Origin: Sphingobacteriales bacterium
Lineage (GTDB): Bacteria > Bacteroidota > Bacteroidia > Chitinophagales > CAIOSU01
Assembly (NCBI GenBank): GCA_027486795.1
Contig: JAIXOI010000004.1
Coordinates: 1 to 64,000, forward strand
Reading direction: 5' to 3'
Length of the DNA stretch: 64,000 nt
Positions within the stretch are counted from its first letter, which is position 1, and every line of letters begins with the position of its first letter. A program made the translations under genes and the position numbers. Below, in pieces: positions 16,658-48,530 of the stretch. The notes under the pieces were generated by a model that was given only the letters and a program-made list of their open reading frames with translations, was not told the DNA's origin and searched no databases.

Positions 16658-16999
16658 ATTGGTTTCGAATTACAGGTTGCGAGTTACAGAAATATCTGCA
16701 GCTCTTTAAAGTTAGCAAAACTTGGTTAGGTAGTAAAAGATAAGAATTTTTAGAAGTACCAAGTACGATTTACGATTGAGTTTTGTAATGCGCCGTTTCA
16801 AGCTCCTTCCCCTTTTTCAGGCATGTCATTTTGAGCGGAGCCGAAAGAGGGAGGTTAGGAGGGGGTTGTTTGGGTAAGCAATGGATTTTAAATTATGACT
16901 GGTGATCATGTAGGCAGATTATTACAACCCAATTACCTAAAACCCCCTGCACTTTTATTAGTTTCACATCTCTCCTTTCATATTTCGTATTTTGACGCC
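16658..16999. repeat. Intergenic region with heptameric and dispersed repeat fragments
   Basis: No gene is seen. Positions 16754-16781 hold degenerate 7-bp units (AAGTACC, AAGTACG, ATTTACG). Positions 16961-16995 hold pyrimidine-rich 7-bp units (GTTTCAC to ATTTCGT). Positions 16824-16848 match the GTCATTnTGAGCGGAGnCGAA dispersed repeat I associate with Bacteroidota genomes. Both flanking genes, nbaC and the SDR, start away from this region, so their promoters must be here. Confidence 0.6.
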
Positions 17000-17794
17000 A
17001 TGAATTTAGATCTTACCGGAAAGTATGCCCTAGTAGGTGGTGCCAGCAAAGGCATCGGCCGTGCCGTGGCCGAAGAGTTGGCACTGTTGGGTGTCAACGT
17101 GATTGTAATGGCCCGCTCGCAAGATTTGTTGCAGCAAGCAGTAGCGGCATTGCCCAATAACGGTACCCAGAAGCACCACTATATTGTGGCCGATAACAGC
17201 CAACCACAAGCCTTACGCGAGGCGGTGGTGACATTTATGCAAGAGCACAATTTGTTTACGATACACATATTGGTAAACAACACCGGAGGCCCCGCTGGAG
17301 GTACTGCTATTGACGCCAAGCCTGAGGAGTTTGTGAGCGCTTTTACCAACCACTTACTTTGCAACCAACACCTTGCCCAAATATTAGTGCCAGGCATGAA
17401 GGCTGCGGGTTTTGGGCGCATTATCAACATTATTAGCACAAGCGTAAAGCAGCCTATACCAGGTCTTGGCGTGAGCAATAGCATCCGAGGGGCGGTGGCA
17501 AACTGGTCTAAAACCCTGTCGTTGGAGCTAGGGCAATATGGCATTACTGTAAACAATGTTTTACCAGGCTTTACCGAAACCGAACGATTGGAGAGTATCA
17601 TTGCAAACAAAGCCTCCAAAACAGGAAATGATGAAGCTGCAATTATTGAACAAATGAAACAGGAAACCCCTGTCCGCCGCTTTGCCACAGCCAACGAAGT
17701 GGCCGCAGCCGCAGCATTTTTGGCCAGCCCAGCCGCTGCTTATGTTAATGGCATTAATTTGCCGGTAGATGGTGGAAGAACGGCAAGTCTTTGA
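17000..17794 (+). CDS. Short-chain dehydrogenase/reductase, atypical catalytic motif
   Basis: About 264 residues from the ATG at 17000 (MNLDLTGKYALVGG), where SDR proteins normally begin. The nucleotide site GGASKGIGRAVAEELA and VNNTGGP (NAG-like) are present, as is the C-terminal NGINLPVDGG. The active-site Ser region is NIISTSVKQPIPGLG, but the usual YxxxK is replaced by VSNSIRGAVANWSK, so the catalytic Tyr is missing. I recall a subfamily with an SN..R version of this site annotated as FabG-like. Its reaction is unknown. It is divergent from nbaC. Confidence 0.82.
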   Translation: MNLDLTGKYALVGGASKGIGRAVAEELALLGVNVIVMARSQDLLQQAVAALPNNGTQKHHYIVADNSQPQALREAVVTFMQEHNLFTIHILVNNTGGPAGGTAIDAKPEEFVSAFTNHLLCNQHLAQILVPGMKAAGFGRIINIISTSVKQPIPGLGVSNSIRGAVANWSKTLSLELGQYGITVNNVLPGFTETERLESIIANKASKTGNDEAAIIEQMKQETPVRRFATANEVAAAAAFLASPAAAYVNGINLPVDGGRTASL

Positions 17795-17796
17795 TT

Positions 17797-17942
17797 GGAT
17801 GACAAAAAATTTGATGACAGAAAATAGATAACAAATGAAAGAGGGTTTAAACTTTTAGACTTTCTGCACTTTTTGTTTCAAATTTATCATCTGCCATCTT
17901 TCGATTTTTTATCTGTCATTTATCATCTTTTATCTTTCTCAT
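17797..17942. repeat. Paired degenerate heptamer arrays before the GHMP kinase gene
   Basis: The right arm (17883-17942) is about eight 7-bp units of ATCTTTC/ATTTATC type and runs directly into the TTG start of the next gene. The left arm (about 17797-17850) has the complementary character (TGACAAA, TGACAGA at 14-bp spacing). Together they make an imperfect inverted pair able to fold in RNA. Confidence 0.6.
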
Positions 17943-18878
17943 TTGGAAACGCCTCCTTTTCGATATTACGCTCACGGTAAATTGCTGCTTAGCGGCGAGT
18001 ATGCGGTATTGGATGGTGCATTGGCTTGGGCCGTACCTACCAAATATGGACAGTGGTTGGAGATTTTTCCTGATTCGCCGGGTATGATCGTTTGGCAGGC
18101 ATTGGATAATGAAGGAATTCCTTGGTTTGAGGCTACTATAAAGTTATCCGACCTTACTGTAATTCAATACAACGACGATGGCTTTGCCACCCGTTTGGCC
18201 GAAATATTGCAAGCCGTTCGAAAGCAAAACCCTAATTTCCTTAAAAACACTAAAGGCATTAAGGCCGTAACTAGGCTTGAGTTTCCGCAAGAATGGGGCT
18301 TGGGCAGCAGTTCCACACTTATCAGTTTAATAGCCCAATGGGCCGAAGTGGATGCTTATAAATTGCTTGCCGATACCTTTGGCGGTTCGGGCTACGATGT
18401 TGCCTGCGCTCAAAGCGGAACGCCCATTTTATTTAACCTGGTACAAGGCAATCCCGTTTGGGAAGCCGTAAGCCATGTGCCACCGTTTAAAGACCATATT
18501 TACTTCGTTTACTTAGGTAAAAAGCAAAATAGCCGCGAAGGCATTGCCCGCTATAGAAAGTTGGACATTGATTATCCTAAGTTGGCATCAGAAATAACCC
18601 TTTGCACCATAACGATGCAAGCTGCGCAACGATTAGACACCTTGCAACAAAGTATGGAGTGGCACGAGAATTTGATTAGCAGCGCACTAGAGCTGGAAAA
18701 AGTAAAGGATAGATTGTTCCCTGATTTCGAAGGTTCCGTTAAATCGCTAGGCGCTTGGGGTGGCGATTTTGTAATGGCAGTAAGCCCAAATGCCACTGCC
18801 GAGGTAATGGCTTATTTTGAAGCTAAAGGCTACCACACCATACTTACGTGGGATGAATTGGTATTGGATGGTAATTGA
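17943..18878 (+). CDS. GHMP-family kinase, probable phosphomevalonate kinase
   Basis: About 311 residues. An N-terminal GHMP signature (HGKLLLSGEYAVLDGALAWAV), the ATP loop EWGLGSSSTLISLIAQW and a C-terminal GAWGGDF element are present. Mevalonate kinase and diphosphomevalonate decarboxylase follow, so this is most likely the missing phosphomevalonate kinase step; homology alone cannot settle that. The start appears to be the TTG at 17943, since no ATG precedes the GHMP domain. That codon abuts a heptamer repeat array, so expression may be modulated there. Confidence 0.82.
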   Translation: METPPFRYYAHGKLLLSGEYAVLDGALAWAVPTKYGQWLEIFPDSPGMIVWQALDNEGIPWFEATIKLSDLTVIQYNDDGFATRLAEILQAVRKQNPNFLKNTKGIKAVTRLEFPQEWGLGSSSTLISLIAQWAEVDAYKLLADTFGGSGYDVACAQSGTPILFNLVQGNPVWEAVSHVPPFKDHIYFVYLGKKQNSREGIARYRKLDIDYPKLASEITLCTITMQAAQRLDTLQQSMEWHENLISSALELEKVKDRLFPDFEGSVKSLGAWGGDFVMAVSPNATAEVMAYFEAKGYHTILTWDELVLDGN

Positions 18879-18967
18879 ATTTCACCCAATCTGAGTTAAA
18901 ACTCCTTAAACTAAAAACCTTTTCATCGGTTATCCAGCCAATGGTGTTATTTTTGTACTAGATTACC

Positions 18968-20050
18968 ATGAATCAACCCAGCATGCAAACCACCAATACC
19001 CCAACTGCCGCGGGCAATACCGCTTGGCGTTGCCCATCAAATATTGCCTTAGTAAAATATTGGGGTAAGAAGGGAAAGCAGATACCGAGCAACCCCAGCA
19101 TCAGCTTCACGCTGAACGATGCACATACCGATATGCACATAGCTTGGCAGTCTAAAAGCACAAGGGGTATAGCATTAGAGTTTCTTTTTGAGGGGAATGT
19201 TAAAGAGGCCTTCGGTAATAAAATCGTTAAGTTTTTAGAGAGTATTTTGGTTGATATGCCATTTTTGGAGCAGTATAGCTTGCGCATATCATCAACTAAT
19301 TCATTCCCACACTCTACTGGTATTGCTTCTTCGGCCAGCAGCATGAGCGCATTGGCCATGTGCCTATGCAGCATGGAGGCCGAGCTAAAAGGTTTGCCGC
19401 AAGATGTTGCCTTTTATCAGCGAGCTTCACACTTTGCTCGCTTGGCCAGTGGTAGCGCATGCCGCTCGGTATACGGGGGCTTGGTTCAGTGGGGCGCAAC
19501 TGCCGCAATGGCAGGTAGCAGCGACTTGTATGGCACGCCCCTGAAAGACAGCGAAATACACCCCGAATTTAAGCACTACAAAGATGCTGTATTGATTGTA
19601 AGCCGCAAGGAGAAAGCCGTGAGCAGTCGCACGGGCCATGCCCTTATGGACGGCCACCCCTACGCTGAGGCCCGATATGCGGATGCCGATAAAAACTTGG
19701 CACAATTGTTAGCAACTATACACGAGGGCGATGTGGACACCTTTATCCGCTTAGTGGAGCACGAGGCGCTTTCTTTGCATGCGTTAATGATGGTCTCAAA
19801 CCCTTCGGTAGTCTTATTTAAGCCCAATACTTGGGAAATTATTAACCGATTGAGAACATTTAGGCAAGAAACGGGTTGTAATGTGTGTTTCACGCTCGAT
19901 GCGGGGCCCAATGTGCATATATTGTACCCCGAAAGCGCAAGCGAGGTGGTGGAAACATTTATAAAAGAAGAACTTGTTGTATATTGCGAGGGCAATTACT
20001 GGATTGCTGACCGTGTTGGCAGCGGCCCTTTAAAATTGGGACATGACTAA
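18968..20050 (+). CDS. mvaD: Diphosphomevalonate decarboxylase
   Basis: ATP-dependent decarboxylation of mevalonate diphosphate to isopentenyl diphosphate. 360 residues. The typical N-terminus CPSNIALVKYWGKKGKQIPS, the substrate/ATP loop STGIASSASSMSALA, SGSACRSVYGG and the catalytic Asp in FTLDAGPNVHILYP are all visible. It overlaps mevalonate kinase by 8 bp, implying translational coupling. A perfect TAnnTTTG box (18948-18955) precedes the start, but it would leave almost no leader. Confidence 0.95.
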   Translation: MNQPSMQTTNTPTAAGNTAWRCPSNIALVKYWGKKGKQIPSNPSISFTLNDAHTDMHIAWQSKSTRGIALEFLFEGNVKEAFGNKIVKFLESILVDMPFLEQYSLRISSTNSFPHSTGIASSASSMSALAMCLCSMEAELKGLPQDVAFYQRASHFARLASGSACRSVYGGLVQWGATAAMAGSSDLYGTPLKDSEIHPEFKHYKDAVLIVSRKEKAVSSRTGHALMDGHPYAEARYADADKNLAQLLATIHEGDVDTFIRLVEHEALSLHALMMVSNPSVVLFKPNTWEIINRLRTFRQETGCNVCFTLDAGPNVHILYPESASEVVETFIKEELVVYCEGNYWIADRVGSGPLKLGHD

Positions 20051-21002
20051 GGTAAAACGTGAGCGCGAAGGCTCCTTTAATTCTAAGATACTGTTGTTTG
20101 GCGAATATGGTATCATCCAAAACTCCATGGGATTATCTATCCCCTACGATAGTTTTAAAGGCAACTTAGCTTTTAAAAAGGAAGGACAGCCATCGCCTGA
20201 TAGCATCACCGAGAGCAATGCATCCCTGCTGCGCTTTGCAACTTACTTAAAGACATTACAAGACAGTGGTGAGCTACATGCTCAAATGGACATGGAGCGC
20301 CTGTTTGCCGATATTGAGCGTGGCATTTATTTCGAATCCAGCATACCACAGGGCTTCGGCGTTGGTAGCTCGGGTGCGCTGGTAGCCGCCTTGTACGATG
20401 AATACGCCATCAATAAAGTAGAGGCGAACGATATCAACAAAAAAGGCTTGAAAGAGCTTAAAAAGGTATTCTCTCAAATGGAGTCTTATTTCCATGGCAC
20501 TAGCTCTGGTATGGACCCATTGATTTGCTATATCGATTTGCCAGTGCTCATTAAGAGCAAAACCAATTTGGATACCGTGGTATTACCTGAAGAAAAGGCC
20601 GGCCAAGGTGCTATCTTCTTGATTGATACTGGTCGCCCGGGCCGCACACAGCCCTTGGTGCAGTATTTTTTAGAGAAATGCCAAGAAAAGGACTTTGTAG
20701 ACATGTGCCGCGAGAAGTTTATTCCTTACAACGACCAGTGCATTAAAGATTTCTTGAAAGGCGAGACCAAATCGCTTTTTGCCAACCTGTACCACCTCTC
20801 TTACTTTTTGCTAGAGAACTTAGAACCCATGGTGCCGAAGCTTTTCCGCGGCGTATGGAAACGTGGTTTGGACAGCGGTGCTTATTACCTCAAGCTTTGC
20901 GGCTCCGGTGGCGGTGGCTTCATCCTTGGCTTCACCGAAGACCTTGAAAAAGCTAAAGAACAACTTGGCGAACACCAGATTAAGGTGATTAAGCGGTTTT
21001 GA
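20043..21002 (+). CDS. mvk: Mevalonate kinase
   Basis: Phosphorylates mevalonate, the first kinase step to isopentenyl diphosphate. 319 residues, GHMP family: FNSKILLFGEYGIIQNSMGLS, ATP loop PQGFGVGSSGALVAALYDEY, HGTSSGMDPLICY with the catalytic Asp, and the C-terminal LCGSGGGGFILGF. It starts inside the end of mvaD. With the upstream GHMP kinase this gives all three mevalonate-to-IPP steps in one operon; HMG-CoA synthase and reductase are not in the window. Confidence 0.93.
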   Translation: MTKVKREREGSFNSKILLFGEYGIIQNSMGLSIPYDSFKGNLAFKKEGQPSPDSITESNASLLRFATYLKTLQDSGELHAQMDMERLFADIERGIYFESSIPQGFGVGSSGALVAALYDEYAINKVEANDINKKGLKELKKVFSQMESYFHGTSSGMDPLICYIDLPVLIKSKTNLDTVVLPEEKAGQGAIFLIDTGRPGRTQPLVQYFLEKCQEKDFVDMCREKFIPYNDQCIKDFLKGETKSLFANLYHLSYFLLENLEPMVPKLFRGVWKRGLDSGAYYLKLCGSGGGGFILGFTEDLEKAKEQLGEHQIKVIKRF

Positions 21003-21056
21003 GGTTGGTTACGAGTTAATTTGTATTTTATACTTGTGCAGGAAGTAATTTAGTAA

Positions 21057-21929
21057 TCACTTACTTTTGTTGTAGTACTTTTGCTTTAGAAGCTCTATGG
21101 ACGTATTGATTTTAAAGCGCTCTTCTTTGTTTAATTCAGCTCTTTTTACTGTGTCATCAATTTTGTCTAATATCCAGTTATATGTTTCCATGTCATCTGG
21201 AAATGTCACTCCTTGAACTAAGGATATAAAATCTTTTATAGTATTTTATTTATCTTTTATGTAATATTCGTTAGTTAGGCTGTAATCAAATACCGCAACA
21301 AACCAGGTTAATGCAGTAAAATAGTCACCAGAATTATTAAATTCAATATACTTCGCGTTGCTGAGATTTAAATCCGTCTCTATTATCTTGTTTTTTATTC
21401 TCTTCATTTCCTCATTCAATATGGTGAGATTTTCATTTGCCAACTGTATTTTGGAGTCTAAAACGGTACTAAATTTTTTTTCAAGTTCAGGAAATTCTCT
21501 ATTCAAATAGTCTTGAGTTGCAAATATCAATTTTTCTAAATCCTCTTTTTGAATGTTAAGCTTCTCATTTGTAGTCAAAGAGAAGGTTGTTAAAGTAGTA
21601 TTTAGATTTTTTATTGCTTGCTTGTTTAATTCATCTGCGCTAGTGATTTTTGATGTCATTTTTTCTTGTAAATATTTATAAATCCAAGCCCAGTAAACTA
21701 GACCTAGGATTGTCAGTATCACAGTAAGTGTAACAACAAACCATGTCATTTGAGTAGATATAATATCACTAAAATAGGATTGGTGAATTTTTTGCTCCAT
21801 CAAAACAGCTTCAAAAGTTTTTAGCTGTGTTAGGATGCTGTCATTGTTAGCTGTTACAACTGCAATTTTATTGTTCAAAGAGTCAATTACCAATTGGTTT
21901 TTTGCCATTAAACTATCTATGTTAGACAT
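21057..21929 (-). pseudogene. Membrane coiled-coil protein gene interrupted by an in-frame stop
   Basis: The open part (21246-21929, 227 residues) has a short N-terminal coiled coil, one membrane helix (about 60-82, TWFVVTLTVILTILGLVYWAW) and a long C-terminal coiled coil. It stops at a TAA at 21246-21248. The same frame then continues for 62 sense codons to a TGA at 21057, with plausible coding sequence (VQGVTFPDDMETYNW, NKEERFKINTSIELL). Around the stop, ATAAAAGAT occurs twice 21 bp apart, suggesting a small in-frame duplication. I do not recognise the family. The AT-rich composition differs from the mevalonate genes next to it. Confidence 0.65.
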
Positions 21930-22058
21930 ATAGGTACGTATTTGTGCGTAGCAAAATTAATTTATTTTGTTCTATTTGTTTTTCAATCCTAGCCCATGAC
22001 TTAAAAGTCATTTCTATTGATATGTTTGTTACGTTTGGCTGCTAAACACCAATAATGT

Positions 22059-22245
22059 CTTTGCGTCATTTGCGGCTTTTCCCTTTGCGCACGTTGCGGT
22101 TAAGAACATAGCACGGGCTTTGTGTACGTTGTGTTTCTCTTTGTGAACTTTGTGGTTAAACACACACCACCAACCAATCAACAAATAACCAATAACAAAT
22201 TCACCCATAATTTATCCGTCGACTGTCGTCCGTGGACAGTGGACT
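22059..22245. repeat. Nonamer and heptamer repeat cluster before the aldehyde dehydrogenase
   Basis: Positions 22059-22156 contain 9-bp units in two versions, CTTTGCGnn and CTTTGTGnn, each ending in a GGTTAA element. Positions 22163-22203 contain 7-bp units (AACCAAT/AACAAAT). Positions 22217-22244 contain four 7-bp units (CGTCGAC, TGTCGTC, CGTGGAC, AGTGGAC). The remaining spacer (21930-22058 and 22246-22290) shows nothing I can name. Confidence 0.65.
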
Positions 22246-22290
22246 AATCAAAAAACTCCCTAATTTAGCGGCTTAAATCCCCGTTTTTAA

Positions 22291-23655
22291 ATGGACATTC
22301 TTAATCCAGCAACTGGCGCTTTAATTGCCACTTTGCCTGATACCACTACCGAACAAGCTCAACAAAAATATGATACTGCCCGCGCAGCACAACCCGCTTG
22401 GGCTGCCAAGCCAATAAGCGAGCGATTGCAAGCTATTGATAAGTTCTATCACTTGTTGGCCGACCATGCCGATAAGCTAGCGGAAGTAACTACCAGCGAA
22501 GTAGGCAAGCCATTAGGCCAAAGTAAAGGTGAGATTAATGGTGCCCGCAAACGCATCAAGTTTTTCTTGGACCAAAGCGCCCGCTACCTAGCCGACGAAG
22601 TAGCTTATGAAGAAGAAGGATTGAAAGAAATCATCCGCTACGAGCCACTGGGTGTTATCGGTAATATATCTGCCTGGAACTACCCCTACCTAGTGGGCGT
22701 AAACGTGTTTGTGCCGGCTTTGATAGCAGGCAATGCCGTGCTTTACAAGCCATCGGAACATGCTACCCTTACGGGCCTTAAAATACGCGATTTGCTATAT
22801 GAAGCCGGCGTGCCACAAGAGGTATTTCAAGTAGTAGTTGGTGCACGCGAAGCTGGCGAGGCTTTGTTGAACTTGCCATTGGATGGATATTACTTTACCG
22901 GTTCATTCCGCACAGGGCAATACATTTACGAGCGCGTTGCCCCTAAAATGGTGCCTTGCCAACTAGAGTTGGGCGGCAAAGACCCATTGTATGTGCCTAA
23001 CGATGTAAAAGATGTAAACAACGTAGCCGTAAACGCTGCTGAAGGTGCTTTTTACAACAATGGCCAGAGCTGCTGCGCTGTGGAGCGCATTTATGTGCAT
23101 GAAGGCATTTACGATGAGTTTGTAGAAGCCTTTGTGAAAGAAACCCAAAGCTACAAGCTGGGCCAGCCAACCGAAGAGGGTGTTTTCCTGGGAGCATTAA
23201 CCCGTAAGGACCAATTAGCTGTATTGGAAAGCCAAGTGAAGGATGCCGAGGCAAAGGGTGCCAAACTATTGTTGGGCGGCCACCGCATCGATAATGGTGG
23301 TTACTTTTTTGAGCCTACCGTGCTCACCAACGTAAACCACACCATGAAGGTAATGACCGAAGAGTCTTTCGGCCCCATTATCGGCATACAGAAGGTAGCT
23401 AACGACGAAGAAGCCATTGCCTTAATGCAGGATACCGAGTACGGCCTTACCGCATCGGTGTACAGCGATAGCCAAGAGCGTGGCGAAGGTATTTTGAAGC
23501 AGATAAACACTGGCACGGCATACTGGAACTGCTGCGACCGTGTGAGCCCATACCTACCTTGGAGCGGCCGCAAACACTCTGGCATTGGCGCTACCTTGTC
23601 GCACATCGGCATCAGGGCCTTTACTAAGCCAAAAGGGTATCACTTGAGGGGCTGA
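22291..23655 (+). CDS. NAD(P)-dependent aldehyde dehydrogenase
   Basis: 454 residues, complete ALDH fold: SAWNYPYLVGVNVFVPALIAGNAV and YKPSEHA for cofactor binding, FTGSFRTGQYI, the general base Glu in LELGGKDP, the nucleophilic Cys in NNGQSCCAVERIYVHE, and ESFGPIIG. It most resembles the short succinate-semialdehyde dehydrogenase-like group; substrate uncertain. It is monocistronic and flanked on both sides by heptamer arrays; the downstream pair fills the whole space to the convergent acetyltransferase gene. Confidence 0.9.
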   Translation: MDILNPATGALIATLPDTTTEQAQQKYDTARAAQPAWAAKPISERLQAIDKFYHLLADHADKLAEVTTSEVGKPLGQSKGEINGARKRIKFFLDQSARYLADEVAYEEEGLKEIIRYEPLGVIGNISAWNYPYLVGVNVFVPALIAGNAVLYKPSEHATLTGLKIRDLLYEAGVPQEVFQVVVGAREAGEALLNLPLDGYYFTGSFRTGQYIYERVAPKMVPCQLELGGKDPLYVPNDVKDVNNVAVNAAEGAFYNNGQSCCAVERIYVHEGIYDEFVEAFVKETQSYKLGQPTEEGVFLGALTRKDQLAVLESQVKDAEAKGAKLLLGGHRIDNGGYFFEPTVLTNVNHTMKVMTEESFGPIIGIQKVANDEEAIALMQDTEYGLTASVYSDSQERGEGILKQINTGTAYWNCCDRVSPYLPWSGRKHSGIGATLSHIGIRAFTKPKGYHLRG

Positions 23656-23658
23656 TTT

Positions 23659-23730
23659 GGTCCATTGTCCATGGTCGATAGTCCATGGAAAGCCTTTTTG
23701 CTGTGGACCGTGGTCCATCGACCGCTGACT
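23659..23730. repeat. Inverted pair of heptamer arrays between two convergent stops
   Basis: The left arm (23659-23686) has units GGTCCAT, TGTCCAT, GGTCGAT and AGTCCAT. The right arm (23703-23730) has GTGGACC, GTGGTCC, ATCGACC and GCTGACT. The arms are roughly complementary, so the region can fold and may act as a two-way terminator. It exactly fills the space between the ALDH and GNAT stop codons. Confidence 0.75.
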
Positions 23731-24253: not shown

Positions 24254-24281
24254 ATCCATGGACCATGGACCATCGACCATC
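24254..24281. repeat. Heptamer array between folA and the GNAT gene
   Basis: Four 7-bp units: ATCCATG, GACCATG, GACCATC and GACCATC. They end two bases from the folA stop codon and lie upstream of the GNAT gene. The unit is the reverse complement of that in the 23659 array. Confidence 0.75.
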
Positions 24282-24283
24282 AA

Positions 24284-24787
24284 CTAAATCTCCACCCTAT
24301 CCCACACCTCAAACGTAAAGGCATATTTATGCCGTTCATCGGTGTCGTGCAGGGCGGTGCTTACCAAAGTCCATTCATCAGGGCTTAGCACCGGAAAATG
24401 CGCATCCGCATCTGGGAAAGTGGCATGCACGCGCGTAAGGTATACGCGGTTGGTTAGGGGCAAGGCTTGGCGGTATATTTCCGCTCCGCCTATTACCATT
24501 ATCTCATCGGTGCCTGTATCGCGGGCCATGATTAGGGCACTATCAATATCGCCAACTACCTCGGCATCTGGTGCTTCAAAATCAGTTTGGCGGGTAATGA
24601 CAATATTCAGGCGCTTCGGCAAGGCTTTGCCCAGTGCCTGAAACGTTTTGCGGCCCATTACTATGGGGTGGCCAATGGTGGTATCCTTAAAAAACTTGAA
24701 GTCGTCGGGCAAGTGCCACAGCAGGTCGTTGTGTTTGCCTATGGCATTGTCTTCGGCGGCGGCCACTACCATGCTTACCTTGGTCAT
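24284..24787 (-). CDS. folA: Dihydrofolate reductase
   Basis: Reduces dihydrofolate to tetrahydrofolate with NADPH, regenerating the cofactor used by ThyA. 167 residues, normal length. [23 protein letters not shown] carries the substrate loop with the catalytic acidic residue; [25 protein letters not shown] and [13 protein letters not shown] bind NADPH. The start ATGA overlaps the thyA stop by 4 bp, so the genes are translationally coupled. Confidence 0.96.
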
Positions 24788-25587: not shown

Positions 25588-25605
25588 TGGGGTAAAGTTA
25601 CTAAA

Positions 25606-25640
25606 CAGTATCAAGTATTGAGTATCAAGTATCAAGTATT
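25606..25640. repeat. Heptamer array in the thyA 5' region
   Basis: Five 7-bp units (CAGTATC, AAGTATT, GAGTATC, AAGTATC, AAGTATT) 19 bp upstream of the thyA start codon. The same AAGTATC family is seen upstream of the metallo-hydrolase gene at 48474. Confidence 0.8.
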
Positions 25641-31231: not shown

Positions 31232-31552
31232 TTTGCCTTGAAACGATTATATTACGGGTAAAAACGTATCGGTAAGTGGAGTTGTATATGATGATACGTT
31301 GAAATCGATGCACATGTTTTACCTATTGAAAATATTGTGCCAACCTTGGAACGCAGATTAAATTGGATTACGCTGATGTCGCAGATTGTAGCGCGGATTT
31401 TAAATTTGATTTCGTTGAAGACGCAGCGAAGATAGGGCGTTGCCCTATCCTGTTATTATTTATCCCCATTGGGGAACTTGTACTATGCAAACAAGACTCC
31501 TTAATTGTCTTGTGTCTTGTGTCTTGTGTCTTGTGTCTTGTGTCTTGTGTTA
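31232..31552. repeat. Intergenic dispersed repeats and a GTCTTGT heptamer array
   Basis: Positions 31504-31552 carry seven 7-bp units (mainly TGTGTCT) that end on the rsgA stop codon. About 31350-31410 has repeated CGCAGATT/GCGGATT-like elements that I associate with Bacteroidota spacers. A perfect ATAGGGC/GCCCTAT hairpin is at 31433-31449. No gene is seen. Confidence 0.75.
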
Positions 31553-41436: not shown

Positions 41437-41476
41437 CTTTCGGGTTGAATAAAGGATGACGATCGCAGTTATTTAG

Positions 41477-41530: not shown

Positions 41531-41589
41531 AGGCACAGTTTGTGCGCTTTGCCCCGTATATTTACTGTTGGTACATTTACCAACTTGCT

Positions 41590-42507
41590 ATGGATTGGAA
41601 GAGCAGTATTAAAGGTTTTAAGGCTTACCTTAAATTGGAGCGGTCGCTTTCGGAGAACTCCATCGATGCATACATGCGCGACATAAGCAAGCTGTTGGAA
41701 TATATAGAACAGGAGTACCCTGGGGTATCGCCAACCAAGGTAGATTTGGGCATTTTGGATGGCTTTGTTACTTGGTTGTTTGAGCGCGAACTGAATGATC
41801 GCAGCCAAGCGCGCATGATTTCGGGGGTGCGGGCTTACTATCGCTATTTGTTGATGGAGGACCTAATGGACCATGACCCGACCGAATTGCTTGAAGGCCC
41901 AAAGATTAAACGGAAACTACCTGATACGCTTAGCTACGAGGAGATAATGCGCATGATAAATGCGATTGACCTTAGTGCGCCCGAAGGTGCCCGCAACAAG
42001 GCCATGCTCGAAACGCTGTACAGCTGTGGTCTGCGGGTTTCGGAGCTGATAAACCTAAGGCTTAGCAGGCTGCATTTCCAAAACGAGTATGTGCGTATAA
42101 TAGGCAAAGGCGACAAAGAACGCCTAATACCTATTGGGCACGATGCAGTAAAGTACATTTCTATTTACATTAACGAGGTAAGGTGCCACCAAACCATACA
42201 AAAGGGCAGCGAAGACCACGTGTTTCTGAATCAGCGGGGCGGCAAAATAAGCCGCATGAGCGTGTTCAATATCATTAAAGATTTGGCACAAAAAGCGGGC
42301 ATCCATAAAAGCATAAGCCCGCATACCCTTAGGCACTCTTTTGCTACCCATATGGTAGAGCGAGGTGCCAACCTTAGGGCGGTGCAGCAAATGTTGGGTC
42401 ACGAATCGATAACCACTACCGAAATTTATACGCATTTGGACCGCGATTTCTTGCGAGATACCGTTGAGCAGTTTTTGCCGAAGCATAGTAAAAGCAAGAA
42501 GGCATAA
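41590..42507 (+). CDS. xerD: Site-specific tyrosine recombinase XerD
   Basis: About 305 residues from the ATG at 41590 (MDWKSSIKGFKAYLKLERSL). The N-terminal core-binding domain (SENSIDAYMRDISKLLEY) and the full catalytic set are present: Arg in YSCGLRVSELINLRL, Lys in IIGKGDKERLIPI, HTLRHSFATHMVERGANLRAV, LLGHxS-like MLGHESITTTEIYTH with the Tyr nucleophile. This is the chromosome-dimer resolution enzyme rather than an island integrase, judged by length and by housekeeping neighbours. Confidence 0.93.
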   Translation: MDWKSSIKGFKAYLKLERSLSENSIDAYMRDISKLLEYIEQEYPGVSPTKVDLGILDGFVTWLFERELNDRSQARMISGVRAYYRYLLMEDLMDHDPTELLEGPKIKRKLPDTLSYEEIMRMINAIDLSAPEGARNKAMLETLYSCGLRVSELINLRLSRLHFQNEYVRIIGKGDKERLIPIGHDAVKYISIYINEVRCHQTIQKGSEDHVFLNQRGGKISRMSVFNIIKDLAQKAGIHKSISPHTLRHSFATHMVERGANLRAVQQMLGHESITTTEIYTHLDRDFLRDTVEQFLPKHSKSKKA

Positions 42508-42689
42508 GTTTAGGGGAATGTATTACATGCAACGTAAAGCAGGGAAGTTGAAATGTCCTTAATCTATTCCAGTTTTATCCAGAAATAACAATTTTGCCCT
42601 CTTAAAACACCTCGCTGATTATATACATTGTAAACGGGTGCAAAGGCATAGTTGCCTCTTTCCAATATTTTCAAATCCTTATTCCATGT

Positions 42690-43079
42690 CTACTCCTCAA
42701 TAACCCTAATGGCCTGTATGTTTTTCTGTTTAAGAGATGTTGCATAAACAATCTCAAACTTCTCTTCGAGGGTAATAGGATCAACTACATAAACTGTGTC
42801 AGGACTGGGGTCAACCTCAAAAATATACGTTGCAGGGTTTATGGGATTATTTAACTTGCCCTCATAGCCAACCAGTTTACCAGACTCAAAATCATCCAGT
42901 AATGTCTCGAGCCAAGGCCTCTTTTCCGCTGTCTTAACATAGTTTTGCAACCAAGGTATGGTAGTTTTACCAGCCGCTTCAATAGTAAGGTCATATTCAA
43001 TTACCTTCTTCAAGGTGTCCTGAGCATCAACATTAAATGCCACTAACAATACAATCGCAAGGGAAAGTATAATTTTCAT
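42690..43079 (-). CDS. Small secreted hypothetical protein
   Basis: About 129 residues from the ATG at 43079 (MKIILSLAIVLLVAFNVDAQ, a clear signal peptide). A longer reading from upstream would run through the rpoD terminator and is rejected. The mature part (TIPWLQNYVKTAEKRPWLETL, PDTVYVVDPITLEEKFEIV) shows no motif I recognise. Probably periplasmic. The 182-bp spacer beyond its stop is empty. Confidence 0.65.
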   Translation of the reverse strand: MKIILSLAIVLLVAFNVDAQDTLKKVIEYDLTIEAAGKTTIPWLQNYVKTAEKRPWLETLLDDFESGKLVGYEGKLNNPINPATYIFEVDPSPDTVYVVDPITLEEKFEIVYATSLKQKNIQAIRVIEE

Positions 43080-43140
43080 AAAGTCGTTTTCAATAGAAAA
43101 CGCAAGAAAGGAAAAAAGATACAGAATTCGCAACAAAAAT

Positions 43141-43170
43141 AAAGGGAGCCAGCTTTCGCTAACTCCCTTT
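43141..43170 (-). terminator. rpoD terminator
   Basis: AAAGGGAG and CTCCCTTT arms with an inner AGC/GCT pair. On the minus strand the stem is followed by ATTTTTG. It lies 31 bp past the rpoD stop. Confidence 0.82.
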
Positions 43171-43200
43171 CGGTCGAAATACAACGCTTGGTTGTTGTTC

Positions 43201-44070
43201 TTATTGGGCCAAATAGGCCTTCAAGGCATCGCACTTGTTAGTTGCGCGAAGCTTGTTGATTGCTTTGTCCTTAATTTGGCGAACACGTTCACGGGTTAGG
43301 CCAAATTCCTCGCCAATATCTTGCAAGGTCATAGGGTGTTCTACGCCAATGCCGAAGAATAGTTTCAACACACCGCGCTCGCGCTCGGTAAGGGTAGCCA
43401 AGGTACGCTCGGTTTCTTTGCGCAACGAGTCGTGGTACTCCATGCCCATATCGGTACGGTCGGTATCGTGGTTCTCCAATACATCCAGCAAAGAGTTGCT
43501 TTCGCCATCAGTAAAAGGAGCATCCATTGATACGTGACGGGTGCTGATGTTCATGGTAGCAGCCACTTCTTCCGGAGAAATCTCCAATAAGGTAGCCAAC
43601 TCTTCTGCAGTTGGTTCACGCTCATACTGTTGCTCTAACTCGGCCAATGCCTTGTTGATTTTAGTAAGAGAGCCAACCTTGTTTAAAGGCAAACGCACTA
43701 AACGGCTTTGCTCTGCCAATGCCTGAATGATAGATTGACGAATCCACCAAACAGCATACGAGATAAATTTGAAACCCTTGGTTTCGTCAAAGCGCTGAGC
43801 AGCTTTTACCAAGCCCAAATTGCCTTCGTTAATTAAGTCGTTCAATGACAGGCTCTGGTTTTGGTATTGCTTGGCAACTGATACTACGAAACGTAAGTTA
43901 GCGCGTATTAGCTTTTCCAAGGAACGCTGGCAACCTTCACGTATGCGCTGGGCCAAGTGCACTTCTTCTTCAGCCGTTAACAGCTCCTCACGTCCAATTT
44001 CTTGCAAATACTTTTCCAGTGACTGGCTGTCACGATTGGTAATAGATTTCGAGATCTTTAGCTGCCTCAT
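43201..44070 (-). CDS. rpoD: Primary sigma factor RpoD/SigA, Bacteroidota short form
   Basis: 289 residues. It lacks the long region 1.1 and non-conserved region of E. coli sigma70, as known for Bacteroidota primary sigma factors. Region 1.2 is [20 protein letters not shown]. Region 2 has [35 protein letters not shown] and [21 protein letters not shown]. Region 3 is [15 protein letters not shown]. Region 4 has [16 protein letters not shown] and the [24 protein letters not shown]. It directs the TAnnTTTG / TTG promoters of this genome. Confidence 0.96.
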
Positions 44071-44561
44071 TACTGAACCGGTTTTTTAGGTTTTATTTTG
44101 TGTTAGGAACGATAAATTTTTTGTTTCGGAGCTTAATAACTGCAGAAATAAGCAGTAAGTTCACCACATATAAACATTCTGTATTTAAGTCATAAGATAA
44201 TAGCTATACAGCTTTCTGCCTCTTTTTACTTCAAAAGTGTGCGTAAGTTACGGATATTATATTTACCGCGCCACAAAAAAATTACAGGGCAATTCAATAA
44301 ACGGAAACGTGGCGATAATATTATCTTAAGATTGGCATAATTTTCAACGAGTTATACATTTTTCTGAGGCGAAATGGCTAGTTGTTCTTCCCGTAAAATT
44401 GTTTGTTTCTCGCTTTAAGCAACAAAATGGATTATGCAGGTTATATTACCTGCTAAGTAAATATGCGTTTCCCGTTTTTTTATGGTTCCTGAATTGATGC
44501 TTTTTTGGGGGAATGTTGTTTGGCAAAAGAGCCTTTTAAATTCCGGGGAAGCTTGCATAAC
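44071..44561. other. Intergenic region upstream of rpoD
   Basis: About 490 bp, AT-rich, with no gene I can support. It must contain the rpoD promoter; I see no perfect TAnnTTTG box on the minus strand close to the start. A short GCAGGTTATATTACCTGC palindrome lies at about 44436-44453. Confidence 0.45.
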
Positions 44562-44587
44562 CCAAAAAAGAGCACCATAAGGCGCTC
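44562..44587 (-). terminator. Terminator of the 44618 gene
   Basis: On the minus strand GAGCGCC-TTAT-GGTGCTC is followed by TTTTTTGGG. Confidence 0.8.
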
Positions 44588-44617
44588 CTTTGAAGACGTT
44601 TAAAATCTAATTTTGTT

Positions 44618-45379
44618 TTATTCTGCGCTCACTATTAGTTTGCGTTGAGCATCTACACTTAAGCTTAAAAACTCCTTGAGGGTTATTTCTTCAGTTATCA
44701 GTCCATTTTCTTGGGCTTCATAAAAGAAGGTTTGCGCTGTAATGGGTTTGCCCTTTTTCAGCTCTTCCAACAATTTTTCGTTACCACCTAGCTTCTTAGA
44801 GTCGTAATATCGGTATGTGTTGTCATCGGCAATTATAAAGAATTTGCCCTTGGCCGTACCTATCGTGTAGTTTTTGGTAGTTTGGTAGGTATAGGTGTTT
44901 TCGTTATCTATCACCGATAGCTCAATAGCGGTTAAGGTGCTCATTACCAATGGGCTGTTGGCATCCTCCTTGTTTATTTCAATATATCGTTTTTCTTTAC
45001 TAACTGAGTTGGTTGCCGAGCCAATTACTACATCGCTCAAGTACATGCCATTAAGGTTTACTACTTCAATTTGTCGGTACTCTAAGTTAGGATTTTTGTG
45101 TTTTGTAAGATCAGGGTAAAAAGGCTTATTGCCTACTTGTGCCGAAGTAGAAGAGGCGGTGTAGCTATCTTTGTTTGTGGCGCTGTTATAGTTATCTATA
45201 CTTGCGTCATCGGTAAGAGGTAGCATGTCGCCTTCATATTGGGCTGTCAAGAGCAGCCTTACAACTTCGGTGCGGGAATATCCTTCCACTGACGCTATCG
45301 CGTAGCTTAGATCCGCTTGAGCAACTGCGCTTGCGCACAGGCCTCCCACTAAAGCCATTGTTCCTAGTATTTTTTTCAT
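44618..45379 (-). CDS. Secreted hypothetical protein
   Basis: About 253 residues from the ATG at 45379 (MKKILGTMALVGGLCASAVAQ, a signal peptide). The mature protein has no motif I recognise; it contains LEYRQIEVVNLNGMYLSDVV and a C-terminal TEEITLKEFLSLSVDAQRKL. Probably periplasmic or outer membrane associated. Monocistronic with its own terminator. Confidence 0.7.
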   Translation of the reverse strand: MKKILGTMALVGGLCASAVAQADLSYAIASVEGYSRTEVVRLLLTAQYEGDMLPLTDDASIDNYNSATNKDSYTASSTSAQVGNKPFYPDLTKHKNPNLEYRQIEVVNLNGMYLSDVVIGSATNSVSKEKRYIEINKEDANSPLVMSTLTAIELSVIDNENTYTYQTTKNYTIGTAKGKFFIIADDNTYRYYDSKKLGGNEKLLEELKKGKPITAQTFFYEAQENGLITEEITLKEFLSLSVDAQRKLIVSAE

Positions 45380-45918
45380 CTCGCTCTCCACTCTCAAGTT
45401 GGGCTGCTGGTTTCGCTCCCAACTCAAGTCAATCTATTCCACAACCATTATTACGATTTTGGCTTTTAAAGGTTACATTATGACGATAAATAACATTCAG
45501 AAATTGCCAATATCTTATAATATCTATTGTGCATCAATACTTTTGGCCACTGCGTATTTTTTTGAGCAAGTCCTTTAAGCCGCACACTTTTTTTGTTTAG
45601 TCATCAATTTGAGGCACTTAATTTGGCAGGTAGGTGCTGTATTGAAGTGGGTATAAAGGGGTAGCACAAAATAACCATACACGATTTAATGATTAAAATG
45701 CGTATTTCGTAAGTAACATAATTTCAGTATTGTAAAAATATTTTTTTTCAAAATAAAATTGTTTCCTTTTTGAAGCCAAATAGTATTGCATGACATTAGG
45801 TTAAACACAAATCGGGCTTACAAGATAAAGACATGCGCTATTGGTAAGTTAGGTAGGTATTCGGGGCGCAGTTAGGTAGCATATTTTCAATTTTACAAGC
45901 ATCATAAAATTAAGCGTA
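45380..45918. other. AT-rich intergenic region, no gene seen
   Basis: About 540 bp between divergent genes. I see poly-A/T runs and no clear repeat family, RNA gene or open frame worth calling. Confidence 0.45.
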
Positions 45919-46074
45919 ATGAGAGATTTACTATGGTTGGTTGCCGTCATCCTGATAATAGGCTGGTTGGTTGGTTTTTTTGGGTTTGGCACAGCAGTAG
46001 GTGGGTTTATTCACATTCTTCTGGTATTGGCCATTATTGCCGTATTGATAAGATTGATTGGCGGACGCGGTTAG
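45919..46074 (+). CDS. Small lmo0937-family membrane protein
   Basis: 51 residues: MRDLLWLVAVILIIGWLVGF, a Gly-rich turn, then FIHILLVLAIIAVLIRLIGG and RG. Two membrane helices separated by a short GFGTAVGG loop and a basic end match the DUF5670/lmo0937 family of tiny membrane proteins, often stress-induced. It has a terminator 49 bp downstream. Confidence 0.85.
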   Translation: MRDLLWLVAVILIIGWLVGFFGFGTAVGGFIHILLVLAIIAVLIRLIGGRG

Positions 46075-46122
46075 AAAGTTGGTATTACGAACGAGTATAC
46101 TAAATTATTAAATGGTTAAATG

Positions 46123-46152
46123 GGGCTGTAGCAATATCTACGGCCCTATTTA
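46123..46152 (+). terminator. Terminator after the small membrane protein gene
   Basis: GGGCTGTAG (46123-46131) and CTACGGCCC (46138-46146) pair with one mismatch and are followed by TATTTATT. Confidence 0.75.
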
Positions 46153-46280
46153 TTACACAGGCGCGCAACTGATCATTGCCCTAACTAATTACTCCATTGT
46201 ATGCTGTTGGATGCTGCCGTTCTTTTAATATCTTTCGATATTAACCATTATGCTAAGAAAACAAAGCAGCCTTTCGCTAT

Positions 46281-47210
46281 TTACTTTGCATCTTTTTTGG
46301 GTTGCTCTGGGTGAGGCTCTTCATGTATGAAAATGCGAACGGCATTGCTGTTGGGCCTTATTTTACCCCCAAATATGTTGGCGTATACGTAAGTTACTTG
46401 TGCCCCAAAATAGAAAATAATGGAAGAGTAAAATATCCAGACCATAATTACAAGTACCGAACCGGCGGCATCGTACAACGATGCTACGTTACTTTTGCCA
46501 ACATAGTAGCCAATTAATAACTTACCTAAACTAAACAGAAGTGCCGTTATGCTGGCACCTACAAAGGCATCTTTCCATTTCATGCGTGCATCGGGAAGCA
46601 ACCTAAATATGAGCGCAAACAATATAACCGAAAGTAAAAGTGGCAGTAACAATGAGGTAATGTGCACGTACCACATTTCCAGACCTGGTATCAAGCGGCT
46701 CACCCAATCGCCAAAAAAGGATACCGTGGCGTTGAGCAACAACGAAATAAGCAAAACGAACGTAATGCTCAATACCATTGCAAAAGATATCATCCTATCA
46801 ATAGCCACTTTTAAGATACTGATTCGAGGTTTGGCCTTTACCCTGAAAATATCGTTCAATGAGCTTTGAATAGTAACGAACACGGTAGTAGACGCAAATA
46901 TGAGCGCCACTATGCTTATGCCGGTGGCCCACCATTGTTTCTGAAATACTCCAATATTGCCAATGGTGTTCATTAATTCGGCAGCACCCGTAGCGCCTAC
47001 CAGGTTACTCAGTTCATCTTGCAATTGTAATTGAAATTTTTGCTCTTCTAAAAAAAAACCGGCAATGTTGATGATAATAATAAGAATTGGTGGTAACGAG
47101 AATATGGTATAATAGGCCAGTGCGGCTGCCATATTCATAGTATTCTCATCGCTGAACTTTTGAAAAGACAGCTTTAACAGTTTCCAAACATTGATGAGGG
47201 TCTGTTTCAT
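46281..47210 (-). CDS. YihY/virulence factor BrkB family membrane protein
   Basis: About 309 residues from the ATG at 47210 (MKQTLINVWKLLKLSFQKF). Six membrane helices with the family signature MNMAAALAYYTIFSLPPILII, FVTIQSSLNDIFRVKAKPR and AAGSVLVIMVWIFYSSIIFYFGAQVTY. The family was once called ribonuclease BN; its actual role is unclear. Monocistronic. Confidence 0.9.
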   Translation of the reverse strand: MKQTLINVWKLLKLSFQKFSDENTMNMAAALAYYTIFSLPPILIIIINIAGFFLEEQKFQLQLQDELSNLVGATGAAELMNTIGNIGVFQKQWWATGISIVALIFASTTVFVTIQSSLNDIFRVKAKPRISILKVAIDRMISFAMVLSITFVLLISLLLNATVSFFGDWVSRLIPGLEMWYVHITSLLLPLLLSVILFALIFRLLPDARMKWKDAFVGASITALLFSLGKLLIGYYVGKSNVASLYDAAGSVLVIMVWIFYSSIIFYFGAQVTYVYANIFGGKIRPNSNAVRIFIHEEPHPEQPKKDAK

Positions 47211-47342
47211 ATCACTACAAAATACGATTCTTATTGCGTGCAAGATGTTATTAATACCCACTTTTGAGAAAACAAATCGATTCAGCGAGCTTAGGCGCCC
47301 TTTAAAAACAACTGCATTGTTTTGTTTGCAGGCTTCTATAAA

Positions 47343-47382
47343 CCAAACGGCCCTTGAAACTGATGTTTCAAGGGCCGTTTGG
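47343..47382 (-). terminator. Perfect 18-bp hairpin downstream of tRNA-Met
   Basis: The arms 47343-47360 and 47365-47382 are perfect complements (CCAAACGGCCCTTGAAAC and its complement) with a 4-base loop. It sits 6 bp past the tRNA 3' end, as expected of its terminator. Confidence 0.8.
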
Positions 47383-47387
47383 TGCAG

Positions 47388-47461
47388 TACCGAGAGGGAG
47401 ACTTGAACTCCCGACCTTAGGGTTATGAATCCTACGCTCTAACCACCTGAGCTACCTCGGT
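47388..47461 (-). tRNA. tRNA-Met (CAT anticodon)
   Basis: 74 bases on the minus strand. The acceptor ACCGAGG pairs with TCTCGGT (one G-U), the D stem is GCTC/GAGC, the anticodon loop TTCATAA (CAT), the T arm GGGAG-TTCAAGT-CTCCC, and the discriminator is A. The first acceptor pair is A-U, and the position 31-39 pair is A-C. Because CAT can also be read by tRNA-Ile2 after lysidine modification, the amino acid is likely but not certain to be Met. CCA is not encoded directly after the discriminator. Confidence 0.9.
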
Positions 47462-47525
47462 AAAAATTGGACTGCAAATATACACGCATTTTGCAAGCAG
47501 TGCAATTTGCAACGAAAAATTGTTC

Positions 47526-47634
47526 GGTGGTTATTGGTTATTAGTTGATTGGGTGCAGAATTGATAGGCAATCTGCTCCAAAAGCTCTCTTTTCAGCCAA
47601 TTAACTCATAACAAGTAAACCAATAACTAGTTAC
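47526..47634. repeat. Inverted pair of heptamer arrays next to the MBL gene
   Basis: The left arm (47526-47553) has units GGTGGTT, ATTGGTT and ATTAGTT. The right arm (47600-47634) has units such as CATAACA, CAATAAC and TAGTTAC and ends at the stop codon of the metallo-hydrolase gene. The arms are roughly complementary. Confidence 0.7.
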
Positions 47635-48474
47635 CTAAAGCACTGCAGCTAGGGGCATTGCCTCGGCCATGCGCACGCCCTTGTCGGTCATTTGCAGGGT
47701 GCAGCATTCAATATGCGCATCATGCTCAAAAAACAAGATGTGGTTATGTTCTTGTGCGGTTTGCAAAAAACTTTTCTTTTCGGTCATGGTTATTAACGGG
47801 CGCACATCGTAACCCATAACGTATGGCAGAGGCATGTGCCCAGGCGAGGGTAGCAGGTCGGCCATATAAACTATGGTCTTGTCTTTATAGTGTATGTGGG
47901 GTATAATTTGGGCTTCGGTATGGCCATTGGCCAATATAAAATCAACACCTGGCAGTATGGGTTGGCCTTCAGTTACAAATTGTAGTTGCCCTGACGCTTG
48001 CAAGGGCAAAAAGTTTTCAGGCAAAAACGAAGCCTTCTCCCGCTCGTTTGGCGTTACGGCCCAATCCCAATGTGCTGGGTGGCTCCAGTACACGGCATTC
48101 GGGAAGGTAGGGGCATAACTGCCATTTGCAGTCCGTTTCACGGCGCCTCCGCAGTGGTCGAAATGCAAGTGGGTTAATATTACATCGGTAACATCTTCTG
48201 GAGCAAAGCCATGTTTTTTTAGCGAGCTTATCAACGTGGCATCGCCATGGGGGTAGTAGTAGCTAAAAAACTTTTCGTTCTGCTTATCGCCCATACCAGT
48301 ATCTATCAGAGCCAAGCGGCCTTCGCTTTCAACCAACAGGCATCGCATGGCCCATGTGCAAAGGTTGTTGCTATCTGGCGTGTGTATTTTTTGCCAAATA
48401 ACTTTAGGCACTACGCCGAACATAGCCCCGCCGTCTAGCTTAAAAAATCCGGTATCAATGGTATAGAGGTTCAT
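47635..48474 (-). CDS. MBL-fold metallo-hydrolase
   Basis: 279 residues. The metal-binding motif HLHFDHCGG (HxHxDH) is preceded by LALIDTGMGDKQNE. Later ligands are His in ANGHTEAQIIPHIHY and Asp in YMADLLPSPGHMP, and a late HDAHIE. This arrangement resembles quinolone/AHL lactonase-like or general MBL hydrolases; the substrate is unknown. Heptamer arrays abut both ends of the gene. Confidence 0.88.
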   Translation of the reverse strand: MNLYTIDTGFFKLDGGAMFGVVPKVIWQKIHTPDSNNLCTWAMRCLLVESEGRLALIDTGMGDKQNEKFFSYYYPHGDATLISSLKKHGFAPEDVTDVILTHLHFDHCGGAVKRTANGSYAPTFPNAVYWSHPAHWDWAVTPNEREKASFLPENFLPLQASGQLQFVTEGQPILPGVDFILANGHTEAQIIPHIHYKDKTIVYMADLLPSPGHMPLPYVMGYDVRPLITMTEKKSFLQTAQEHNHILFFEHDAHIECCTLQMTDKGVRMAEAMPLAAVL

Positions 48475-48481
48475 TTCTTTT

Positions 48482-48530
48482 TAGTATCAAGTATCAAGTA
48501 TCAAGTATAAAGTATCAAGTACGATGTACG
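48482..48530. repeat. AAGTATC heptamer array upstream of the MBL gene
   Basis: Seven 7-bp units, mostly AAGTATC, ending in AAGTACG and ATGTACG. They lie 8-56 bp upstream of the start codon, so they are in the leader or promoter. The tail units match those at 16754-16781. Confidence 0.85.

Follow-up and report, generated by a model that had tools for sequence, protein, structure and literature searches.

The window analysed here is a stretch of 64,000 nt from contig JAIXOI010000004.1 of the Sphingobacteriales bacterium assembly GCA_027486795.1. Spacers between its genes hold arrays of degenerate tandem units of 7 nt, referred to here as heptads (Table 1). Genes adjoining these arrays include those for RsgA, thymidylate synthase (thyA), DHFR, and a metallo-beta-lactamase, all confirmed by Pfam. 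The preliminary description of the window had placed arrays tight against the start or stop codons of rsgA, thyA, the metallo-beta-lactamase gene, and a GHMP kinase gene. This is so for the first three, but neither of the two proteins matching GHMP kinases (18968-20050 and 20043-21002) has a called array adjoining it. The open reading frame (ORF) at 17943, which lies beside a weak array, has no Pfam match at 0.001. The genome of the window is designated G000, its relatives in the same genus are G001 to G004, and sampled stretches carry L numbers. The four relatives are metagenome bins with a genome completeness of 78-97%.

Period 7 in the window and in the genome

Among lags 3-15, lag 7 gives the best identity in 9 of the 10 intervals in which 7-bp units had been described, and the tenth (25606-25640) slightly favours lag 14 (0.81 vs 0.79); the tandem units are therefore borne out. 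Lag-7 identity across the ten ranges from 0.38 (47526-47634, interior included) to 0.90 (31504-31552), with shuffle p values of at most 0.0035 that are descriptive only, the intervals having been preselected. Tandem Repeats Finder reports period 7 at seven places within the intervals, including 31506-31550 with 6.4 perfect copies.

The genome sample consists of 400 kb in 20 stretches, each 20 kb long, that were placed on a position grid and come from contigs already known from array hits. This sample contains 41 lag-7 runs, against 0-22 for the other lags from 2 to 30, except for the harmonic lag 14 (29). With the window added, the lag-7 runs are intergenic in 46 cases and coding in one; the lag-9 runs are intergenic in two and coding in 21 (21/23). 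A second scoring covered 486 kb of the genome, window excluded, with a segment score cut-off of 9. Lag 7 gave 64 intergenic segments and one coding segment, lag 8 gave 22 and three, and lags 5, 6, 10, 11, and 13 each gave 0-3 intergenic segments. A genome-wide search for an intergenic excess at lag 7 had been proposed, its absence to count against the arrays; the excess is present. As in short tandemly repeated repetitive (STRR) sequences and long simple sequence repeats (LSSR), the 7 nt units stand in tandem at many dispersed, mostly non-coding loci.

Period 7, which had been called strict, is dominant only, since a minor class has period 8 (16 intergenic segments when the cut-off is raised). 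Several of these are made of AATTTGAA or GTTAATTG units and lie near gene ends. Such units are seen at L041, L044, L048, L101, and L036, at gene ends and in some cases as facing arms. Three contig ends of G001 (C15:1-74, C10:101-173, and C1:500557-500609) reach into GTCTTGT arrays, which suggests that assemblies may break at arrays and that array length may be underestimated.

Table 1. Heptad arrays and array-bearing spacers of the window. Positions are those of the window; scores refer to the segment score.
Feature	Position	Strand	Context
NNTACGA-type array, AAGTACCAAGTACGATTTACGATT	16754-16777	+	96 nt from called gene start 16657; conserved in G003
Weak GAAATNN-type array	16961-16995 (core 16976-16992)	-	Right edge of spacer 16658-16999; score 7.5, below 9
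Degenerate weak array	17883-17942 (core 17916-17937)	-	Before ORF 17943; score 7.5, below 9
Divergent spacer	22163-22244	.	GGTTATT-type array 22180-22200 and weak GTCGAC/GTGGAC-type array 22218-22244
GTCCATG-family facing arms	23656-23730 (core 23660-23686)	.	Entire convergent spacer (aldehyde dehydrogenase / GNAT)
GTCCATG-family array	24254-24284 (core 24256-24284)	-	At DHFR gene stop; reads outward GTTGATGGTCGATGGTCCATGG
AGTATCA-family arm	25606-25640 (core 25607-25639)	+	AGTATCA-AGTATTG-AGTATCA-AGTATCA-AGTAT; before thymidylate synthase gene
AGACACA-family array, 6.4 units	31504-31552 (core 31506-31550)	-	At rsgA stop; 14 nt shorter in G003
GGTTATT-family facing pair	47526-47634	.	Left arm 47528-47546; right arm ends at metallo-beta-lactamase stop
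Composite AGTATCA/TGTACGA array	48482-48531 (core 48483-48531)	+	Before metallo-beta-lactamase gene

Families, polarity and facing pairs

Arrays were compared in a set of 70 from 550 kb, with family grouping by eye. The units had been called locus-specific and, at the same time, members of shared families. It is the second statement that stands, the units being a small set of families that recur across the genome. Families that take in many of the arrays, when these are read outward from the nearer gene end, are AGTATCA, AGACACA, GGTTATT, GTTRCGR, NNTACGA, AAAATTN, GAAATNN, and GTCCATG. For 42 of the 70 arrays the nearest called gene end is at most 20 nt away (a stop for 26, a start for 16), gene starts being approximate because a simple home-made gene caller was used. 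Among these 42, the outward polarity of similar arrays agrees in 108 comparisons, is opposed in 11, and is tied in two; the counts are pairwise and hence not independent. The polarity is the same at starts and at stops, and is therefore tied to the edge of the spacer and not to the direction of transcription.

Arrays that share a spacer tend to face each other. Pairs in the same spacer match in inverted orientation in 10 of 20 cases, compared with 163 of 2257 pairs taken between stretches (p 5e-7); direct matches are found in 4 of 20, compared with 185 of 2257 (8%). At 50 loci chosen for the AGTA arm there are 14 facing pairs and a single back-to-back pair, whose arms are 1355 nt apart with a called gene in between. 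In the 36 paired elements collected from five genomes, gene ends are within 20 nt of both arms in 14, of one arm in 20, and of neither in two. The interiors of 25 nt or more (31 compared) gave six matches, all between loci taken as orthologous from their flanking alignments. Arrays flanking one gene match inverted in 3/21 cases and direct in 3/21, against 7% and 8% at random, and the idea of gene cassettes bounded by arrays was rejected.

Variation in the arms of the AGTA and AGAC families is concentrated in the unit that is second from the gene. It is non-consensus in 15 of 27 arms, compared with 20 of 81 units at other positions (p 0.004), a test that was framed after the arms had been inspected. 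Predicted RNA folds are strong in four of the five spacers that were folded (z -3.25 to -9.4). The spacer 23656-23730 has a predicted fold of -31.7 kcal/mol (z -4.2), the GGTTATT pair at 47520-47634 has a z of -3.5, and the spacer with the weak array at 17883-17942 folds as a whole (z -3.25); the fold of the rsgA array is weak (z -1.7).

The window also contains a CRISPR-like array (clustered regularly interspaced short palindromic repeats) at 5321-7859, with about 38 repeats of period 66. No period-7 segment was found in it at a cut-off of 8, in agreement with the preliminary description, in which heptad arrays were not obvious there. A single ORF of 2427 aa lies at 50106-57389, and Rfam at gathering scores gives only a tRNA in 15000-50500.

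Close species and distant genera

The metallo-beta-lactamase of the window is 98-99% identical to those of G003 and G002, 90% to that of G004, and 85% to that of G001. Orthologous spacers (130) were compared between the close species G000 and G003, the flanks of which are about 95% identical. Arrays are present in 32 of these spacers, in both genomes in 17, in G000 only in seven, and in G003 only in eight. Median spacer identity is 0.73 in these 32, as against 0.95 in the other 98, and identity falls below 0.65 in 10 of the 32 compared with 4 of the 98 (p 1e-4; with spacers of 100 nt or more, p 0.004). Six of the 32 show a clear change of family by eye, and in two of the six one partner belongs to a period-8/16 class. 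In two further array-bearing spacers the replacement brought no clear new family, and these are left out of the six.

Spacers of the window illustrate these differences. The 75 nt GTCCATG hairpin that makes up 23656-23730 is present in G000 and G002, and G003 has a 154 nt GTTRCGR hairpin in its place. The composite array at 48482-48531 has a counterpart with another mix of units in G003 and G002, and an AGGAATT-family facing pair in G001. Where the window has the degenerate array at 17883-17942, G003 and G002 have a spacer of the GAAATNN type. A clearer GAAATNN-type array is found at the right edge of the G001 ortholog of spacer 16658-16999. This spacer of the window and the G003 ortholog of L100:6925-7053 hold similar stretches, GTCATTTTGAGCGGAGCCGAAAGAGGGAGG and GTCATCCTGAGCGTAGTCGAAGGA, and there are arrays in both. 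The arm at 25606-25640 has matches of about 30-45 nt at 84-97% identity in many places of G001-G004.

Indels of at least 5 nt in well-aligned G000/G003 spacers measure 7, 7, 7, 7, 14, 14, 8, and 44 nt. The six that are multiples of 7 lie in clear arrays (four), in heptad-like sequence (one), and outside any array (one, in L039). The number of units therefore shifts by whole units, 6 of the 8 indels being of 7 or 14 nt, as is the case for STRR.

One spacer, L042:12663-12732, was considered as an instance of movement of a single hairpin. Its AAAATTN hairpin in G000 and G002 comes with a TTG start, compared with an ATG start in G003, the start being taken from the alignment. The spacer is identical in G000 and G002, yet its flanks are closest between G000 and G003 (96/89%, against 85/88% for G002), and the interior is single-copy in both G000 and G002. 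Five other perfect tracts of 96-182 nt are shared by G000 and G002 within the same 10 kb, so that ordinary short-tract recombination of spacer versions suffices, and movement of this hairpin is not claimed. Over L042:3500-13600, where identity between G000 and G002 is about 90%, the perfect tracts (90-182 nt) would reflect mosaic recombination or cross-assembly.

Beyond the close relatives, a pattern of four successive AGTANNN heptads was searched for in 60 genomes. It is found in 25 of them, including all five of the genus (18-84 matches each), and has no match in the two genomes that represent other genera of the family. The reversed pattern used as control has 20 matches in G000, where the pattern has 84; in G017 it has 211 and the pattern none. 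High control counts in some genomes are expected if those genomes hold other repeats. In the sampled stretches of two sister genera the expected numbers of period-7 segments were 6.1 and 7.6, and none was found. Segments of period 7 per 20 kb number seven in G058, which belongs to another family and has some of them as facing pairs against stops, two each in G017 and G024, and one in G048; none was found in 20 kb each of G013 and G051. Among 395 genomes of the phylum, 12, including that of the window, have three successive GTTRCGR units.

The exact four-heptad arm AGTATCAAGTAGTGAGTATCAAGTATCAAG, a 30-mer, occurs verbatim in at least 50 stretches of the named genome collection. The carriers among the matches listed are G001-G003, G004 (a Chitinophagales bin), another Bacteroidetes bin, four Pedobacter genomes, and five Mucilaginibacter genomes. 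Mucilaginibacter belongs to the order Sphingobacteriales. If the genus of the window lies in Chitinophagales, as some genome records indicate and others (Sphingobacteriales) do not, and Pedobacter has the placement usually given to it, the arm is shared across orders. The 30-mer is in no viral contig, and a 33 nt query gave one weak plasmid hit (E 0.3), so carriage of the arm by phages or plasmids was rejected. Each of 11 viral contigs (L200-L210) contains a GTTRCGR array.

Pairing of the arms is most regular in Mucilaginibacter SG564. In this genome, which is not labelled as metagenome-assembled, the AGTANNN pattern matches 69 times on one strand and 71 times on the other, the control 4 and 8 times. 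The 20 places examined comprise 17 facing pairs among the matches listed and three single hits, and 19 of the 20 have a facing pair when up to 8 mismatches per arm are allowed. Interiors are 30-40 nt long in 15 of the 19, the inner pair being taken where two overlap. Several start with ACAGCT or AC and end with AAAAT, or the reverse complement of this, although the alignment is poor and the similarity weak. The unit has the appearance of a separate hairpin, about 94 nt long, and provides the strongest indication that arms travel as pairs. In Mucilaginibacter OK283 (L172) a facing pair of octamers, made of GTTCATTG units, is present in a spacer together with an AGTATCA arm. Searches of the literature gave no mention of heptad arms in Pedobacter or Mucilaginibacter, which is no proof of absence.

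Origin of the arrays and related repeats

It is moderately probable that small palindromic repeat elements, spread by copying and then reshaped by slippage in steps of 7 nt, have the arrays as their arms. Each array would be such an arm, whole or decayed, with a typical length of 25-32 nt (about four heptads). An interior, mostly of 25-150 nt and unlike that of other loci in the genus, would be enclosed by two facing arms of the same family. Families would have spread within the genome and across genera as single arms or complete hairpins were copied. After settling, arms may gain or lose single heptads by replication slippage, and whole spacer versions may be swapped between lineages, possibly by short-tract recombination. 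A palindromic element has outward polarity whichever way round it lands, so the polarity would be explained without a role in transcription. The period, families, polarity, pairing, indels of 7 nt, family changes, and the identical arm in distant genera are observed; that copying occurs by movement of the elements, and that these have no function in the host, is inferred.

The enzyme responsible for such movement may be a Y1 transposase. Matches above 60 bits are present in G000-G003, G017, G048, G051, and G058, and there are none in G004, G005, G006, G013, and G024. Strong matches and arrays occur together in G000-G003, G017, G048, and G058, and neither is seen in G005, G006, and G013. Other palindromes accompany the Y1 genes that were inspected. 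In L124 the Y1 transposase has palindromes of its own and lies between the arms, with GTTRCGR arrays at the spacer edges. At L123, G000:C44 near 101732, the Y1 gene is flanked by AACCGTTAAAACGGTT-like and CCCACGGTTAAAACCGTGGG-like palindromes, which is a system like the repetitive extragenic palindromic (REP) sequences and separate from the heptads.

Several observations weigh against mobile palindromic elements. The link with the Y1 transposase has exceptions, in that arrays occur without a strong Y1 match in G004 and G024, a match occurs without an array in 20 kb of G051, and none of the three Y1 loci inspected has arrays directly beside the gene. None of the 130 orthologous spacers shows an element cleanly inserted where the empty site is preserved in the other genome, and target duplications were not found. 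Polarity is not seen in the 28 arrays more than 20 nt from gene ends (31 comparisons agree and 25 oppose). Many arrays are single, and an inverted partner scores above all 40 control spacers for only 13 of 64 arrays. The 31 interiors share no sequence between different loci in the genus, unlike those of an ordinary miniature inverted-repeat transposable element (MITE), and the unit-by-unit grammar is based on 27 unselected arms. In the 14 array-bearing spacers that are at least 80% identical, substitutions are rarer within arrays (13/394 sites) than outside them (298/4110); in spacers without arrays 1097 of 18559 sites are substituted between G000 and G003. The lower rate within retained arrays may reflect constraint, and a detection bias toward intact arrays may contribute.

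This slower change keeps in view the main alternative, that the arrays are functional sites. Each family would serve as the binding array of a protein that recognises DNA or RNA and insulates genes, for instance by acting as a polar roadblock that stops outgoing and admits incoming transcription. A polarity fixed relative to the gene, whether at start or stop, would suit this, as would arms of four units and the conservation of one arm sequence across orders. There is no clear preference per spacer type, however, arrays being present in 9/43 convergent, 33/187 tandem, and 10/55 divergent spacers (0.93, 0.61, and 0.46 per kb). The replacement of families between close species and the empty samples of two genera of the same family also argue against it, and such a function is considered fairly unlikely.

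If the arrays were plain microsatellites, the heptads would arise and expand locally by slippage, and the families would be due to coincidence and mutation. The indels of 7 and 14 nt are as expected from this. Papers that cite Mrazek 2007 report that it found heptanucleotides to be the commonest long repeats and that it is said to have proposed polymerase slippage. The polarity, the facing pairs, and an exact 30-mer with a fixed order of units in other genera are beyond local slippage alone, which makes this quite improbable as the whole explanation. Rather than as "microsatellites", the repeats are better seen as structured elements in view of their polarity, their facing arms, the arm found across orders, and the family changes, which makes the search for a copying enzyme or binding protein concrete.

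A role as transcription terminators with drifting stem sequences would be in keeping with the strong folds and with the densities per kb, which appear highest in convergent spacers. It is very improbable, because convergent, tandem, and divergent spacers carry arrays alike when counted per spacer, the fold of the rsgA array is not significant, and canonical-looking hairpins were seen by eye inside two of the facing pairs (L056 and L057). Templated addition, by which a telomerase-like reverse transcriptase would extend the two sides of a spacer break with heptads before they are joined, would produce outward polarity and a single family on both sides of an unrelated interior, and G004 has a GGGTTAA-type array, but it is hardly credible given the regular interior length in Mucilaginibacter and the lack of an RVT_1 match in the array-bearing G001-G004 at their 78-97% completeness (G000 has one match).

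The favoured palindromic elements would behave like foldback elements or REP doublets, although membership of those families is not claimed. REP doublets, or REP doublets forming hairpins (REPINs), are dispersed intergenic facing pairs of short conserved arms, which are palindromic and linked to a Y1 transposase. The arms described here also face each other, but consist of tandem heptads, and are not directly adjacent to the gene at the three Y1 loci inspected. The Foldback and Galileo elements of Drosophila have terminal inverted repeats of short tandem units around a variable middle, and have a known transposase relative. The plan of the terminal repeats is similar, but Foldback and Galileo are eukaryotic and far larger. 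MITEs have homologous interiors, which is not the case for the elements of the genus; in Mucilaginibacter the interior length is near-constant and the sequence similarity weak.

Heptanucleotide repeats in spacers have been noted repeatedly in bacteria without an explanation. Three heptanucleotide STRR are reportedly present in Calothrix, and the arrays resemble cyanobacterial STRR in that several dispersed heptanucleotide families occur in one genome. Arrays of TAACTGA heptamers are known from Beggiatoaceae, Cyanobacteria, and five Bacteroidetes (MacGregor 2015, PMC4679880). The preliminary description had noted no described function for such arrays in Bacteroidota; this is correct, none being found in the literature consulted, but the arrays themselves had been described. 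The TAACTGA repeats are likewise intergenic and patchily distributed, and in some Bacteroidetes they share their spacers with other heptamers. Of 14 sets in F. litoralis, 12 are forward before starts and one is reversed just after a stop, which can be read as the same outward polarity as here. They differ in being mainly direct repeats before start codons, and in the BOGUAY genome, as far as the accessible portion of that paper goes, related heptamers are rarely repeated and there is only one indirect repeat (PMC4679880). None of the 70 arrays is built of the TAACTGA unit.

The closest likeness in architecture is to the heptads of Xanthomonas (GGGAATC) and of Anabaena/Nostoc (GGGGA(C/T)T), which vary extensively between close species and for which, in the accessible part of the report, a function was not found (Rehm 2015, PMC4692102). 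The Xanthomonas repeats form facing heptad pairs of the same polarity and the same architecture. Facing pairs and outward polarity at gene ends are found here too, with many arrays unpaired. The repeats of Rehm 2015 are a single G-rich, quadruplex-forming family in each organism and are under-represented between divergent genes. Here, there are several families in one genome, mostly not G-rich, with replacement of families and no clear deficit between divergent genes. GGG occurs in the GTTRCGR arrays and in L034:3281 and is absent from the AGTATCA, AGACACA, GGTTATT, NNTACGA, AAAATTN, and GAAATNN arrays, and quadruplex-capable G-tracts were not found in the array sequences of the polarity set.

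Facing heptad pairs in Xanthomonas and heptamer arrays in Bacteroidetes were thus already known. What is new is the presence of several mostly not G-rich families in one genome, the replacement of families, and an arm common to distant genera. Should copying be confirmed, the arrays, at 70 in 550 kb, would make up a sizeable class of repeats in bacteria, one whose members rewrite spacers and in one instance a start codon. It is possible, if doubtful, that the heptads of Bacteroidota, Xanthomonas, Nostoc, and Beggiatoaceae are one palindromic class, spread between distant genera by an undescribed mechanism. They would share a grammar of about four heptads, a divergent second unit, and outward polarity at the edge, and this edge position might make spacers exchangeable modules that reset stop and start codons.

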